DNA of 64,000 nucleotides, from positions 62,001-126,000 of the forward strand of contig JAKSIF010000001.1 in the NCBI GenBank assembly GCA_024398965.1. Reading direction: 5' to 3'. Of the stretch, positions 52,370 to 58,293 are shown piece after piece (position 1 is the first letter of the stretch; every line of letters begins with the position of its first letter). The DNA comes from Fibrobacter sp. (GTDB lineage Bacteria; Fibrobacterota; Fibrobacteria; Fibrobacterales; Fibrobacteraceae). Position numbers and translations under genes: made by a program. The notes beneath the pieces were generated by a model. That model was not told the origin of the DNA. It saw only the letters and a list, made by a program, of their open reading frames with translations, and did not search any database.

Positions 52370-52375
52370 TATATT
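52370..52375 (+). promoter_or_regulatory. -10 box for the structured RNA
   Basis: TATATT at 52370-52375 would place a start site near 52382, directly before the first hairpin of the RNA candidate. TTCGTT about 16 bp upstream is a weak -35. Confidence 0.45.
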
Positions 52376-52384
52376 TAGTATGAC

Positions 52385-52594
52385 ATAGTTCGGCCTTGCG
52401 AAAGCGAGGCTGAACGACCGGTTTTATAGAGTTTTTGCTCTTATTCTCTGTCCTGAAACTACCACTTTCTAATGCACTTGAGAATAAGGCGAATGCTCAC
52501 GTCCCATTTGGGGCGTGGGCCGTTCGTGCTTATTTTGTGCAAGGGTGTGGTAGCCCTCAGGACAGATAAGTGCATTCGGTTCCACGCCTTTTTT
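52385..52594 (+). ncRNA. Unrecognised structured RNA leader of the R-M gene
   Basis: About 210 bases that code for nothing convincing but fold densely. (1) A 12-bp hairpin with GAAA tetraloop at 52388-52415. (2) A long P1: TCTGTCCTGA (52447-52456) with TCAGGACAGA (52557-52566), continued by CTACCAC (52459-52465) with GTGGTAG (52547-52553). (3) Inside, AATAAGGCGAA (52483-52493) with TTCGTGCTTATT (52523-52534), capped by CACGTCCC/GGGGCGTG (52498-52517, loop ATTT). (4) AATGCACTT (52471-52479) in the P1 interior is complementary over 9 bp to AAGTGCATT (52568-52576) just outside P1, a pseudoknot. (5) CCACGCC plus T6 (52582-52594) can pair with GGTGTGG (52544-52550), forming a terminator that would break P1. 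I know no Rfam class that fits. Confidence 0.6.
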
Positions 52595-52665: not shown

Positions 52666-55131
52666 ATGGCAAAGCAAGAAATCAATACGGATTTTTGGGT
52701 ACGCGACCTATTAAAAGAAGCAACAATAAACCTTGACGCTCAGGGCAGCTCTATTAAAGAACTCGATGATGCTTTAAAAACAGCTTCAAAAAAAGGCAAC
52801 GGCAAAAAAGGATATCCTGAATACGTTGGTGTTGTCAAAGATTTTTTAATTGTCATTGAAGATAAAGCCTCTTTACATGATCACGAATTAAGGGATGACG
52901 ACAACCTATATTCAATGGAACCAAAGAACGTTCAAAAATACGCCATGAACGGAGCGTTCTTTTATGGAAGACACTTGATTCAAAATACAACCTACAAAAA
53001 GGTCTTTGCAATCGGCGTCTCTGGTTCAGAAAAGAAACACCGAATCACTCCCATTTTTCTAGATGATCGATGCAATGTTTTCTATTTGGACGATGTCGAG
53101 TCCTTTATTTCCTTTAACGAAGAAAATATCGATGAGTATTACCATCGCGATGTTCTTAAGGAAAAAACGGACAGCGAAAAAGAACTTAAAGACATTCTAG
53201 ATGATGCGAAGGAACTTCATGAACACCTCCGTAATTACGGAAATATGAAAGACGAAGAAAAGCCTTTGATTGTTTCTGGAATTCTCCTTGCCTTACGCGA
53301 ACGTGATAAGAAAAACTTCAGCATAGATTCACTAAACGGTGATACATCCAAAACGGATGGACAAAAAATCTACGAAGCCATTAAAGACAGTTTCAACAGA
53401 GCAAACCTATCTCCAGTCACCAAGATTGATAAAATTCTTTCGCAATTCAGTATTATCAAAGATAGTACCAAGCTGAATGAAGTCAACAAGAATCTTGGAG
53501 AAACCCCTCTAAAGTTCTTTGCAAAATTTCTCGACGAAAAGTTGTATAGATCCATAAAATACAGCAAGACATCAGAAGATTTTCTTGGACGATTTTATGG
53601 CGAATTTATGCATTATTCTGGAGGAAGCGGTCAAACCCTTGGTATCGTTTTGACTCCTAGTCACATAACTGAATTATTTTGCGATTTACTTGATGTTAAA
53701 AACAGCGACAGAGTTTTTGATTCTTGCTGTGGAACAGCTGGTTTCCTGGTCGCGGCTCTTCACCGCATGTTATCTCAAACTAGCAAAGAAAGCGAAAAGA
53801 ACGAAATTCGAAAGAACCAATTGTACGGCATAGAAATTCGTTCTGACATGTTCACTATCGCGACAACAAACATGATTCTTCGTGGAGATGGAAAAAGCAA
53901 CCTTCAATGTGAAGATTTTCTTTTGCAAAATCCTAAAGAATTACAGAAGAACATCCGCGCAACCGTTGCAATGATGAATCCTCCTTATAGCCAAGGATCT
54001 AAGCAAGCACCCGACTTGTATGAAATAGCTTTCACCGAGCATCTTTTAGATTCTCTTGTAGAAGGAGCTCGTTGCGCCGTAATTGTCCCTCAAAGTTCTA
54101 TGACAGGAAAAAGTAAGGAAGAACTTGCCATAAAACAAAGTATTTTGATGAAGCATACCTTAGAAGGCGTAATCATGCTACAAAAGGACACCTTTTATGG
54201 AGTCGGCGTGATTCCTTGCATAGCAATCTTTACTGCCGGAGAAAAGCATCCAAGTGACAAACTTTGCAAATTCATCAACTTTGAAGATGACGGCTACAAA
54301 GTCTCGCCACACGTTGGTCTTCTAGAAACAGATTGTGCCAAAGACAAAAAACAGCATTTACTAGATGTTTGGTTCAATCGTATTGATGCGGAAAATAAAT
54401 TCTGTGTAAAATCAACAATAAAAGCCGAAGATGAATGGCTCCACAGTTTCTACTACTTCAATGAAGAAATCCCTTCAGAAACGGACTTTGAAAAAATCGT
54501 CAATGATTACCTGTCATTTGAATTTTCAATGATCATGCAAGGGAGAAAATACTTGTTTGAAAAAACAGAAAATACGCAATTACACGATCTTTGCTATAAA
54601 AACACACCCAAAATCAAAGAAAAAGAATGGCGAGATTTTTGGCTTTCCGAGAAAAATGACATTTTCGATCTCAAAGCGACATCAAGTGGTATAGATGGAA
54701 ATAAGTTGATTCCAGGAGTCGGTCCCATTCCCTACATATCTCGTTGCGATAGCAATAACGGAATAAAGGCTTTCATTTCACCTCATCAAAAAGAGAAGTA
54801 TCAAATGGATTTAGGGAACTGCATCAGTATCGGACTGGATACGCAGACCGTATTTTACCAACCCTATAACTTCTTTACCGGTCAAAATATTCAGATTTTA
54901 AGAAACAACCGTCTAAACAAATACAACGCTTTATTTCTAATTCAAGCCATACTTTATCAAATGGGGAAATTTAATTGGGGAGGAAATGGAGCTACATTAG
55001 GACGTTTGAAGCGAACAAAAATTTTGCTCCCAATCGATTCCAAAGGCAATCCCGATTACGAATACATGGAACAATACATCAAGAACCTTATGCTAAGAAA
55101 ATACCAGGACTACCTTTCCTTCAAGGAATAA
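52666..55131 (+). CDS. Single-chain restriction-modification enzyme (type IIG-like, R-M-S)
   Basis: An 821-residue fusion. N-terminal nuclease: a PD-(D/E)XK-type segment at about 51-70 (YPEYVG ... FLIVIEDKAS, with Glu-x-Lys). Helical HsdM-like N-terminal region follows, then the N6-adenine methyltransferase: motif I FDSCCGTAG near 352 and motif IV NPPY at 438-441. A single type I HsdS-like target-recognition domain spans about 640-815 (YISRCDSNNGIKAF ... LGRLKRTKILLPID). All three activities in one chain fit type IIG/BcgI-like systems; no separate HsdR or HsdS gene is adjacent. I start at the ATG at 52666, with GGATGG upstream. Codon use is AT-rich compared with the first 45 kb. Confidence 0.83.
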   Translation: MAKQEINTDFWVRDLLKEATINLDAQGSSIKELDDALKTASKKGNGKKGYPEYVGVVKDFLIVIEDKASLHDHELRDDDNLYSMEPKNVQKYAMNGAFFYGRHLIQNTTYKKVFAIGVSGSEKKHRITPIFLDDRCNVFYLDDVESFISFNEENIDEYYHRDVLKEKTDSEKELKDILDDAKELHEHLRNYGNMKDEEKPLIVSGILLALRERDKKNFSIDSLNGDTSKTDGQKIYEAIKDSFNRANLSPVTKIDKILSQFSIIKDSTKLNEVNKNLGETPLKFFAKFLDEKLYRSIKYSKTSEDFLGRFYGEFMHYSGGSGQTLGIVLTPSHITELFCDLLDVKNSDRVFDSCCGTAGFLVAALHRMLSQTSKESEKNEIRKNQLYGIEIRSDMFTIATTNMILRGDGKSNLQCEDFLLQNPKELQKNIRATVAMMNPPYSQGSKQAPDLYEIAFTEHLLDSLVEGARCAVIVPQSSMTGKSKEELAIKQSILMKHTLEGVIMLQKDTFYGVGVIPCIAIFTAGEKHPSDKLCKFINFEDDGYKVSPHVGLLETDCAKDKKQHLLDVWFNRIDAENKFCVKSTIKAEDEWLHSFYYFNEEIPSETDFEKIVNDYLSFEFSMIMQGRKYLFEKTENTQLHDLCYKNTPKIKEKEWRDFWLSEKNDIFDLKATSSGIDGNKLIPGVGPIPYISRCDSNNGIKAFISPHQKEKYQMDLGNCISIGLDTQTVFYQPYNFFTGQNIQILRNNRLNKYNALFLIQAILYQMGKFNWGGNGATLGRLKRTKILLPIDSKGNPDYEYMEQYIKNLMLRKYQDYLSFKE

Positions 55132-55222: not shown

Positions 55223-55984
55223 TCATGCATTTTGTGGATTGTCAGAAAAAATCTTTCGCAGCATATCCAAGGCTTCTTCCTTGGTCATGCCGTCACCTAA
55301 AATTTGAGAATCAACGACTTCTTCTTTCATGGAATCCAAGAAAGTCTCTACATCATGCTGGATTTTTTCAGGCAAGGTAATTCTCAAATCCGCCGATAAC
55401 AAAGGAAGAAGCCTAAACACATCGTTCTTATGCTTCCTGTAGTCATCTGTATTGACGTGTCCACCTTTTTCTTTTGATTCTTTCAAGTTCATCCTTGCCT
55501 TCATTTTATACAGAATCAAATACTCCGGCTTAAGAACTCTAATGCCATTCAAAACATCACAGCCTTCACTTAAAAGATTGTAATAGCTTTCGTCAAGAAT
55601 AATCGCAGACAAACTGGATACATCTTCTGCTATTGTGACTCGCCTAACATCCCCAGGAATAACTAAAGGATCAGTGCTTTTTGAGAGCAATTCTATCATT
55701 GAAGGATATCCGACTTGAGGATCGGTAAATCGATAGAAGCACGTTTTCGCTCTTTTTTGCTCACCACATGTATATTGGCCTTCTTTAATAAAATCCCAAA
55801 AAGTTTTTCCAAATTCAACATACCTTTGGGCATCAACAACCAACACCATATCGACATCTTTCGTTGAGCGAAACTTCAATCCGGCGTCTTCCATCAGGAT
55901 AGAGCAAGCGGTCCCGCCGATGACGACATATTCGTCATTAAATTTTTCGAATTTTTCACGAAACTTTTCAAGGCCATTTACCAT
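55223..55984 (-). CDS. AbiEii-like nucleotidyltransferase, toxin of a TA pair
   Basis: A 253-residue nucleotidyltransferase-fold protein. The GGTA motif (VVIGGTACSIL) is near residue 22 and the metal-binding Asp pair is in TKDVDMVL near 43-46; these are the hallmarks of AbiEii/AbiGii-type toxins, which modify RNA or tRNA in abortive infection. It overlaps the preceding HTH gene by 7 bp (ATGGTAA), as type IV AbiE pairs do. Target and toxicity are inferred from family and arrangement. Confidence 0.72.
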   Translation of the reverse strand: MVNGLEKFREKFEKFNDEYVVIGGTACSILMEDAGLKFRSTKDVDMVLVVDAQRYVEFGKTFWDFIKEGQYTCGEQKRAKTCFYRFTDPQVGYPSMIELLSKSTDPLVIPGDVRRVTIAEDVSSLSAIILDESYYNLLSEGCDVLNGIRVLKPEYLILYKMKARMNLKESKEKGGHVNTDDYRKHKNDVFRLLPLLSADLRITLPEKIQHDVETFLDSMKEEVVDSQILGDGMTKEEALDMLRKIFSDNPQNA

Positions 55985-57003
55985 TGTACGGTCTCCATCA
56001 TTTCTTCAAGGCATCCAACCACTCGTTCATCCTTGGATTCTTTCAACGACATATACAAAGAAAGAGGATCGACAACGCCATCTACGGCAAACAGCGAGGG
56101 ATTATAACTCCATATCTGAACTTCAACCAGTTCCAATTTGCTGAACCACCTCAAACCAGCAGTGTAATCAATGACATTTGGGGATAAATCCTTTTTTTGA
56201 CAGGCATACGCATCAATACGCGGAGCGTTCAACATAGTTTTTGCGGAAAGAGCAGTCTCACCTGCCTTCGGGAAGGCTTCCTTCAAGTTATCCTTTGTTA
56301 CAATGATTCGCTTTTTTATGGGGTTTATTAAATAGGGTTTTGCTTTTTCCACCAAACTCGCTCCATTGTCCGTGCAAGTCATCAGAATAGACCGGCCATT
56401 CTCCTGCAATCGCACCAGCCCAAGTTTTTCCAGTTCCCGAGAATACCTGGATACTGCCATTGCATTTAAACCTGTTTCCTGAGCAGCTCGCGCCTTGGTC
56501 ACATAAGAGTCTTTCACTTTGTACAACATGTACAAAAAAAGCAGCTGCCCCTGAGGCGTCATTTTTTTAGGAAGGTCATTATCATCTTTGTTACGCACAC
56601 CTGCAGCACGGTTCTGGTTTTGCAGAGCCACTCCCAAAAACGGAAGGTAAATCAGGGATGTCGGCGCAATGAACGGAACTCGCTCTTGAATCAACGATTT
56701 ACGCTGCGCATTAGAAGTGTTCCTAAAAAGAAACGCCACCGGTCTCGTCAAAACTTGTTCGTACTTTTTAATCTGCCTTGCCAAAGCTTCTGCATCAAAG
56801 GATTCTTCGCCAAGGACAGCGACAACAACAAAACGGACTCCCTCTACGCAAGCATTAAAGAACCCACGATTTTTCACCATGTACAAAGGCAAGCCCTTGG
56901 GTTGAACAGCTGCACTCACATTGCAGTCAAAACCATTTTCCAGGAAAATGCTCTTTACAAAATCGCAGATGTTCTCATTGTCAAAAAAGAAGAAAAAAGC
57001 CAT
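55978..57003 (-). CDS. AbiEi-like winged-helix antitoxin/regulator
   Basis: A 341-residue protein. Residues 1-145 form an alpha/beta domain I do not recognise. Residues about 150-220 are a MarR-like winged helix (AAQETGLNAMAVSRYSRELEKLGLVRL). The C-terminal 120 residues resemble the AbiEi-type half. It is the upstream partner of the nucleotidyltransferase and the likely autorepressor; nested palindromes stand just upstream. There is no Shine-Dalgarno, and a TATAAT lies about 12 bases before the ATG, so the mRNA may be leaderless. Confidence 0.68.
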   Translation of the reverse strand: MAFFFFFDNENICDFVKSIFLENGFDCNVSAAVQPKGLPLYMVKNRGFFNACVEGVRFVVVAVLGEESFDAEALARQIKKYEQVLTRPVAFLFRNTSNAQRKSLIQERVPFIAPTSLIYLPFLGVALQNQNRAAGVRNKDDNDLPKKMTPQGQLLFLYMLYKVKDSYVTKARAAQETGLNAMAVSRYSRELEKLGLVRLQENGRSILMTCTDNGASLVEKAKPYLINPIKKRIIVTKDNLKEAFPKAGETALSAKTMLNAPRIDAYACQKKDLSPNVIDYTAGLRWFSKLELVEVQIWSYNPSLFAVDGVVDPLSLYMSLKESKDERVVGCLEEMMETVQW

Positions 57004-57015
57004 ATCTAAATACTC

Positions 57016-57060
57016 ATTATAACATTCACTATCAAATGTAACATTTTAAAATGTTATAAT
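57016..57060. promoter_or_regulatory. Nested palindromic operator upstream of the AbiE-like pair
   Basis: ATTATAACATT (57016-57026) and its exact complement AATGTTATAAT (57050-57060) frame an 18-bp perfect palindrome TAACATTTTAAAATGTTA (57039-57056). A further copy ATGTTACAT follows at 57070-57078. TATAAT appears on both strands at the outer ends (57016-57021 for the minus strand, 57055-57060 for the plus strand), so repressor binding would cover both divergent promoters. Confidence 0.7.
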
Positions 57061-57233
57061 CAAGTTTTTATGTTACATATTGTGGTTTTTTACTAAAAAC
57101 AAGGAAAACATGTTAATAAATTGTTTATTTACTTTTCAAAGAAGACACATAATTCCGAACCCTAAGGCCTGTTTGAGCCTTAAGATTTCGTTGCTGTAGA
57201 TTTTTTTGACAAAAGATGAAAATGGGTTAGTAA

Positions 57234-57605
57234 AAGAGGTCTCTTTTCCAATCAAATGTTTGGGGGAAGAACTACCTTCAAAACTCAGAAATTAAATTTG
57301 AATACTACCTGAATGGAATTCATTCTTCATATCCAGACTTTATTATGAGAGACAAGAAAGGTTCTAACCACCTTTTCGAAGTCAAGAGCGTCAACGTATC
57401 AAATAAAGCCCAATTTGACTCAGTGGAATACAAATCAAAAATCAACGCACTGAAGGACTGTTATAAGCTGTGCTCTATTCTTACAGGCGATTATTACTAT
57501 TTACCGGTGTTGAAAGATGAGGATTGGCAAATAACTGTTTTTTATAAGGGTGAAGAAGACATTCTTACAAAGGAAATGTTTAAAAAATCTTTTGAAAGCC
57601 AATAA
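57234..57605 (+). pseudogene. 3' fragment of a type III restriction (Res) subunit
   Basis: The frame is open from just after the stop at 57231 to 57605 but has no start before codon 38 (ATG 57345). The translation includes NYLQNSEIKFEYYL, then YPDFIM and FEVKSV, that is the PD-(D/E)XK nuclease motif in the setting seen at the C terminus of type III Res proteins. The helicase part (roughly 750 residues) is absent. A terminator follows. No Mod gene is in the window. It could instead be a truncated DEAD-helicase nuclease tail. Confidence 0.58.
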
Positions 57606-57652
57606 AATCGTTTCCGTATTCCGCATGTCTTTAAATAATCTAAAACACCCTC

Positions 57653-57687
57653 CCCCGACGCCTCTCACCGGCATCGGGGATTTTTTT
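57653..57687 (+). terminator. Intrinsic terminator after the Res fragment
   Basis: CCCCGACGCC pairs with GGCATCGGGG (one mismatch) and is followed by T7. Its sequence closely matches the terminator at 55155-55187. Confidence 0.8.
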
Positions 57688-58293
57688 CAAAGCAGCACCT
57701 CCAGGTAAGTTTTCAGAATTTTGGAAACCCTAAGTTTCTTCGCATATTCTGCAAGCTTATTTAAGTCCTTGCCATCCCATGCAGCGAACCTCTTAATTGC
57801 CACCAGCAACAGTTCGTTGCTTACGCGGGATCTGTTCTTGATCAAATCACAAATTGTTTTTTCCAGGTCATAGCAGCGAACGGTATTACCAAAAGGAGTT
57901 TTCACCTCCGTCACTCCCAAATCAAATAGTTCTGGCTTGCAAGTGAATACCTTGCAGGCATTTTTCAGAGACAATGACGGTGCATGTCCAAAGGGAACTG
58001 TTATTGAATGTTCAAAAGGAGTCCGTTCCGAGAAGCCGTGCAAGAAAAGGGCCGTTTCGTGAGAAATAATCAAATTATCTGAACGAGACGAAATCATGAA
58101 GATTTCATCTGGAATTGCATCTGGCAAAACATACTGCCCTTGCGCAACTCGGACTAGCTCGCCTAACTTGCACAAGGATGATAATTGGGCCCGCGAAACT
58201 CCCACAGACTCGGATTTTGAGGAAAGCACAACCCCATTGTAAGCAGCAGCCACATCTTTCAGCAAGCCAATTTCTTTTTTCTTTAAAACTCAT
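57687..58293 (-). pseudogene. Orphan AbiEi-family antitoxin with 5' frameshift
   Basis: AbiEi-type antitoxin: N-terminal winged helix (VSRAQLSSLCKLGELVRVAQGQYVL) and the AbiEi core (ISHETALFLHGFSERTPFEHSI; VRCYDLEKTICDLIK). The main frame starts only at a TTG (58265). An ATG at 58293 lies in another frame; removing one A from the A6 run (plus-strand T6, 58275-58280) joins them to read MSFKEKEIGLLKDVAAAYNG, a natural N terminus, giving 201 residues. As sequenced, the gene is either frameshifted or uses the TTG. No AbiEii toxin is adjacent. Confidence 0.7.

Follow-up and report, generated by a model that had tools for sequence, protein, structure and literature searches.

A recurrent structured RNA leader with mutually exclusive folds, a probable transcription attenuator, upstream of restriction-modification and surface-protein genes in Fibrobacter and its relatives

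The regulation of restriction-modification (R-M) genes has so far been known mainly from single systems in which C proteins or antisense RNAs act. C proteins control individual R-M systems (PMC6237814, PMC4824078), and antisense RNAs do so in EcoRI and Eco29kI, each a single system (review PMC3874152). The RNA element described here, from a window of 64,000 nucleotides of Fibrobacter sp. (the whole stretch of DNA that was analyzed), would share with C-protein systems the dedicated control of R-M genes, and with the antisense RNAs control of R-M expression at the RNA level. However, C proteins act on DNA with one controller per system, whereas here an RNA architecture is held in common; and the antisense RNAs work within one operon, whereas here a sense-strand leader is conserved across many R-M types.

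The element can also be set beside leaders with alternative folds. In attenuators of the trp leader type, 1:2, 2:3, and 3:4 pairings alternate, and the element resembles them in its four segments, their mutually exclusive pairing, and the choice between terminator and antiterminator; it differs in showing, by inspection, no leader peptide shared by every copy, in the loop-loop pairing within its long rod, and in its presence as hundreds of paralogous copies 5' of R-M and surface genes. Riboswitches in Rfam, SAM classes included, are similarly 5' leaders with competing folds that end in an intrinsic terminator, but the element has no Rfam match and no conserved unpaired aptamer core was seen in it. 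The initial annotation of this locus had held that its fold belongs to no known class, and this stands for the window and its relatives: at the gathering score, Rfam returned no match for the window copy, for a long subclass, or for copies in family f10 of the phylum. At permissive thresholds the window gave only sub-threshold Rfam matches, which were taken as chance (the best, isrC, scored 21.6 bits at E 0.03, where gathering requires 39). A DUF3800-XI RNA match above gathering (41.4 bits; L135:2210-2260) is unrelated to the element. A search of the literature found no description of this RNA class among open-licence papers, a scope in which absence is no proof. Judged by sequence comparison, the element is a previously undescribed RNA class in Fibrobacter and relatives.

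The leader of a type IIG gene

Positions 52370-52594 of the window hold a promoter-like box and a leader of ~210 nt, with a type IIG R-M gene downstream. The RNA at 52385-52594 is structured, with a folding energy of -100.8 kcal/mol, compared with -58.6 ± 4.4 in shuffles (z = -9.7). Of the features reported at the outset, the 12-bp GNRA hairpin, P1, inner helices, and T6 tract are all present in the sequence, as is an apical hairpin, of 10 bp. The features, with z values from the co-evolution test described below, are as follows.

52370-52375, + strand: -10-like box TATATT, placed on a comparative basis, with a 6-nt spacing to the G of GACATAG
52382, + strand: predicted transcription start, the G of GACATAG, placed by comparison
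52388-52415, + strand: H0, a 12-bp 5' hairpin capped by GAAA (GNRA); variable, seen in the subclass that starts with GACATAG
52440-52448, + strand: segment A, CUUAUUCUC, partner of B in the terminator state
52448-52456, + strand: P1 5' strand; 8/8 pairs with double changes, z -31.8
52455-52469, + strand: HA, GAAA-CUACCAC-UUUC, whose loop pairs with the HB loop (HA:HB z -15.9)
52473-52477, + strand: P3a 5' strand, variable and covarying; 5/5 pairs with double changes, z -29.8
52480-52488, + strand: segment B, GAGAAUAAG, partner of A (terminator state) or C (antiterminator state)
52496-52505, + strand: P5 5' strand, CUCACGUCCC; z -12.1
52512-52533, + strand: segment C, GGCGTGGGCCGTTCGTGCTTAT, the 3' side of P5/P4/P3b in the antiterminator and otherwise the terminator 5' arm (B:C z -11.4, C:D z -14.2)
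52537-52541, + strand: P3a 3' strand, covarying with its 5' strand
52543-52556, + strand: HB, GGG-UGUGGUAG-CCC, partner of the HA loop
52557-52565, + strand: P1 3' strand, covarying with its 5' strand
52566-52594, + strand: segment D and U6, the 3' arm and tract of the intrinsic terminator (T6 at 52589-52594)
52666-55131, + strand: the putatively controlled type IIG R-M gene; likely start ATG 52666, with GTG 52570 inside the RNA element also possible

In the window copy, P1 (52448-52456 with 52557-52565) is extended by a CUACCAC/GUGGUAG pairing. The product of the gene carries N6_Mtase (E 1e-33) and Methylase_S (E 2e-11) domains by Pfam, and its best PADLOC family is REase_MTase_IIG (E 1e-167). 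On the minus strand at 55223-58265, inspection by eye suggests an AbiE-type-like pair, one member nucleotidyltransferase-like and the other antitoxin-like, both without a Pfam match at 0.001.

A promoter scan found no strong sigma-70 consensus, and the -10-like box rests on comparison: TANNNT lies 5' of GACATAG in 83 of the 89 GACATAG copies, usually at a spacing of 6-7 nt, compared with 13% of random 16-mers. We infer from this that the element is transcribed from its own promoter, with a start at 52382.

Competing pairings and their co-evolution

Helices were evaluated by comparing the duplex energy of cognate segment pairs with that of shuffled pairs across 88 copies and 500 permutations, an approach that avoids dependence on one alignment-derived fold, with the tested segments cut from an alignment of copies. 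For P1, HA:HB, P3a, A:B, B:C, C:D, and P5, the segment's own partner beats all 500 permutations (z -11 to -32). These include three pairings that exclude one another, A:B (z -11.1), B:C (z -11.4), and C:D (z -14.2), whereas the control pairs A:D, A:C, B:D, and HA:D give z between -0.3 and +1.2; related sequences are not independent, but the control pairs carry the same relatedness. P1a:D gives -4.4 in the same test, which we attribute to overlap of the D segment with the end of P1b. Columns of P1 and P3a vary freely yet in step, with 154 double-changed cells against 39 when shuffled and at most 21 when slid.

The covariation search proposed in the initial annotation separates its helices. P1 and the terminator stem covary, the latter with 52512-52533 as its true 5' arm and with compensatory UCG/CGA, CCG/CGG, and UUG/CAA pairs at C:D among copies. 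The GGTGTGG proposed as that arm does not: the corresponding HB:D pairing lacks co-evolution (z = +1.6, 88 copies). A 9-bp pseudoknot between 52471-52479 and 52568-52576 does pair letter for letter in the window copy, but it shows no co-evolution in 88 copies (z = +0.7) and is broken in a second copy from this genome, 99% identical, where AAGTGCTTT replaces AAGTGCATT. We add the A:B helix (52440-52448 with 52480-52488), which had not been described; it is 100% paired in 31 copies, and its counterpart in divergent copies is a pairing of CUUGUUCUC and GAGGACAAG. The HA and HB loops are exact complements in 150 of 161 copies despite more than 20 loop sequences, and the HB stem varies as GGG/CCC, GGU/ACC, GGC/GCC, and others. 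Because HA and HB retain their own short stems, they could kiss instead of forming a plain duplex.

These helices assemble into two states. In the terminator state, A:B encloses HA and the C:D hairpin encloses HB, with the U-tract following; in the antiterminator state, P1, HA:HB, P3, P4, and P5 form a rod. A:B excludes B:C, and C:D excludes both B:C and P5. Between promoter and gene there is a predicted intrinsic terminator, the C:D helix plus a T-tract, in 159 of 161 copies, and its arm pairs in 88/88 copies under terminator-constrained folding. The antiterminator shares an arm with it, since B:C and P5 compete with C:D and each co-evolves. As all competing pairings co-evolve, both states appear to be under selection, and the earlier proposal of mutually exclusive terminator and antiterminator folds is supported. 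Comparison of the copies establishes the element, its position, all of these pairings, and their mutual exclusion, and we consider it likely that the element attenuates transcription in cis, as a new RNA class of Fibrobacterota.

Nearest-neighbor energies favor the rod over the terminator fold in 88/88 copies, by a mean of 16.6 kcal/mol (range 4 to 32), and in stepwise folding of the nascent window RNA A:B forms first and the rod afterwards. With the rod so favored, the terminator should rarely form unaided, and something probably must stabilize A:B for the OFF state; we infer that read-through is the default and that termination follows when something holds A:B. In the proposed sequence of events, transcription would begin just 5' of the element and segment A of the emerging RNA would pair with B. 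C could then capture B; together with P1, P3-P5, and the pairing of the HA and HB loops, this would make one long antiterminator rod, and RNA polymerase would continue into the R-M or surface-protein gene. Alternatively, A would retain B, so that C would be free for D, and the C:D hairpin with U6 would stop transcription. A trans-acting factor or ligand, common to all copies of a cell, may tip the balance to A:B.

A stable rod of antiterminator type, lying 5' of accessory operons and surface genes, would also fit a processive antitermination element similar to HK022 put RNA or EAR, in which RNA polymerase, under the influence of the rod, runs through this terminator and others further along long accessory operons. 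We regard this as unlikely: the element's own terminator arm is sequestered by a simple co-evolving pairing, which makes an effect on polymerase unneeded, and some targets are single genes, such as the IIG gene of the window. As for a leader peptide, inspection of the reading frames revealed none shared by every copy; in 44/144 copies a short frame is accompanied by an SD-like triplet, and in the 55 copies lacking GACATAG a median of only 15 nt lies 5' of segment A.

A small RNA acting in trans, through either a ~210-nt terminated product or the HA/HB loops, with adjacency to R-M genes explained by joint transfer, would fit the apparent own promoter and terminator (both predicted) and the CUACCAC loop common to 56 copies. 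It is a very improbable reading, given the closely spaced start codon, the lack of opposite-strand cases near methylase genes, and the B-P5a segment, for which no antisense partner was identified outside elements in six genomes. Complements of B-P5a in those genomes are the antisense strand of known elements, plus a few taken as elements missed by the model. A separate antisense RNA against B-P5a was also considered and dropped, as the matches fall on known or presumed elements.

Distribution and downstream genes

The element was found by blastn in 83 of 151 related genomes. A covariance model built from 31 copies matches in 89/111 genomes of the family (Fibrobacter and relatives), with 1 to ~20 copies per genome and roughly 500 matches in total (~530 when summed, of which a few are antisense double counts). 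In the rest of the phylum, the only other matches are weak and come from two genomes of family f10. L185, a distant copy from outside the Fibrobacter family, also lies 5' of a DNA methylase gene. Among named records, an exact 24-base core occurs in Fibrobacter or Fibrobacteraceae/Fibrobacterales and in one MAG labelled Bacteroidales, whose contig (L203) would reflect either transfer or mis-binning. A 23-base core had no exact match in IMG/VR, where viral carriage was sought.

The unrelated contexts of the copies, together with the 99%-identical copy that precedes another gene in the window's own genome, would suit a moving promoter-leader cassette or repeat whose sole role is to supply a promoter. 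That reading is extremely unlikely, because selection has kept three mutually exclusive pairings despite sequence change, and no transposon-typical ends were seen.

Genes behind the element were surveyed for 108 copies in 16 near-complete genomes. Classes were assigned by protein cluster from the Pfam/PADLOC result of one representative; for the secreted class, signal-like N-termini recognized by eye also contributed. By this classification, R-M genes come first in 55 cases, lipoprotein/secreted in 27, DUF4417 in 3, TPR in 2, EndoU in 2, and other in 19 (one of these, L142, is a type II methylase by PADLOC). The R-M types comprise HsdM, HsdR, type III Mod, IIG, ISP, MmeI, C5, D12, and EcoRI-type, together with a Tsp45I-type endonuclease gene that a methylase follows. 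An element lies within 3 kb upstream on the same strand of 19/62 N6_Mtase genes (0.19 expected) and 14/35 N6_N4_Mtase genes (0.12 expected), with 0 on the opposite strand in both cases. The control of R-M genes suggested for the window copy gains support here, as copies precede many unrelated R-M types far above chance; with only these proportions of methylase genes carrying an element, a fraction of them, not all, is served. About half of the copies are not directly 5' of an R-M gene, so the regulon extends beyond R-M.

R-M methylases use SAM, and a strict metabolite riboswitch over methylase genes, for example one for SAM, would fit the switch-like architecture. We think this improbable: no Rfam riboswitch matches, SAM included, and helices account for the conserved positions, with nearly all invariant positions explained by the two helix sets. 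Identical loop types before R-M and lipoprotein genes also make a SAM-specific logic unlikely. The idea that SAM or methylation state is the signal is unsupported, with about a quarter of copies preceding lipoprotein/secreted genes and no aptamer-like conserved unpaired core seen among the compared copies.

The element also occurs in long forms. One, of ~229-248 nt with an enlarged apical arm, lies 5' of type II methylase genes, C5 among them; a different one lies 5' of lipoprotein genes. Among the 21 long copies that precede R-M genes (by class assignment), 20 carry the 5' half a second time after the terminator, and this extra half matches the same 3' half (-29.7 kcal/mol with its own, -19.0 with other loci). 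Long-form loci 5' of type II methylases in which an extra 5' half after the terminator co-evolves with the same 3' half are L124, L129, L131, L132, L143, L144, L155, and L189.

Several loci are of separate interest. A DUF4417-like gene (a weak Pfam match, below the curated cut-off) opens a small operon between two elements ~1.8 kb apart, the second of them 5' of an R-M system (L033-L039); in the 3 DUF4417 cases of the survey an R-M gene lies ~1.8 kb further on. EndoU-nuclease genes, possible toxins, have an element upstream and are sited after R-M loci (L116, L084, L041). At L078:1781-7496 the element is 5' of an unassigned multi-gene operon with a SNF2-type helicase resembling ZorD/DpdE, possibly an uncharacterized defense system. 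The third copy in the window's genome (L089, contig C58) precedes a gene matching the PADLOC candidate PDC-S48.

A possible defense-and-surface regulon

A shared switch before type I, II, IIG, III, and ISP systems would constitute a common control layer of anti-phage defense. It is conceivable, and we propose it tentatively, that one RNA switch architecture, in up to ~20 copies per genome, lets one signal acting across the whole cell, for instance phage infection or growth state, govern both nearly all R-M types and surface lipoproteins. If true, this would be an RNA-based defense-and-surface regulon with a content similar to that of the Bacteroides phase-variable regulons. In a host that is a major cellulose degrader of the rumen, the set of elements would then offer a ready-made regulon and a testable switch.
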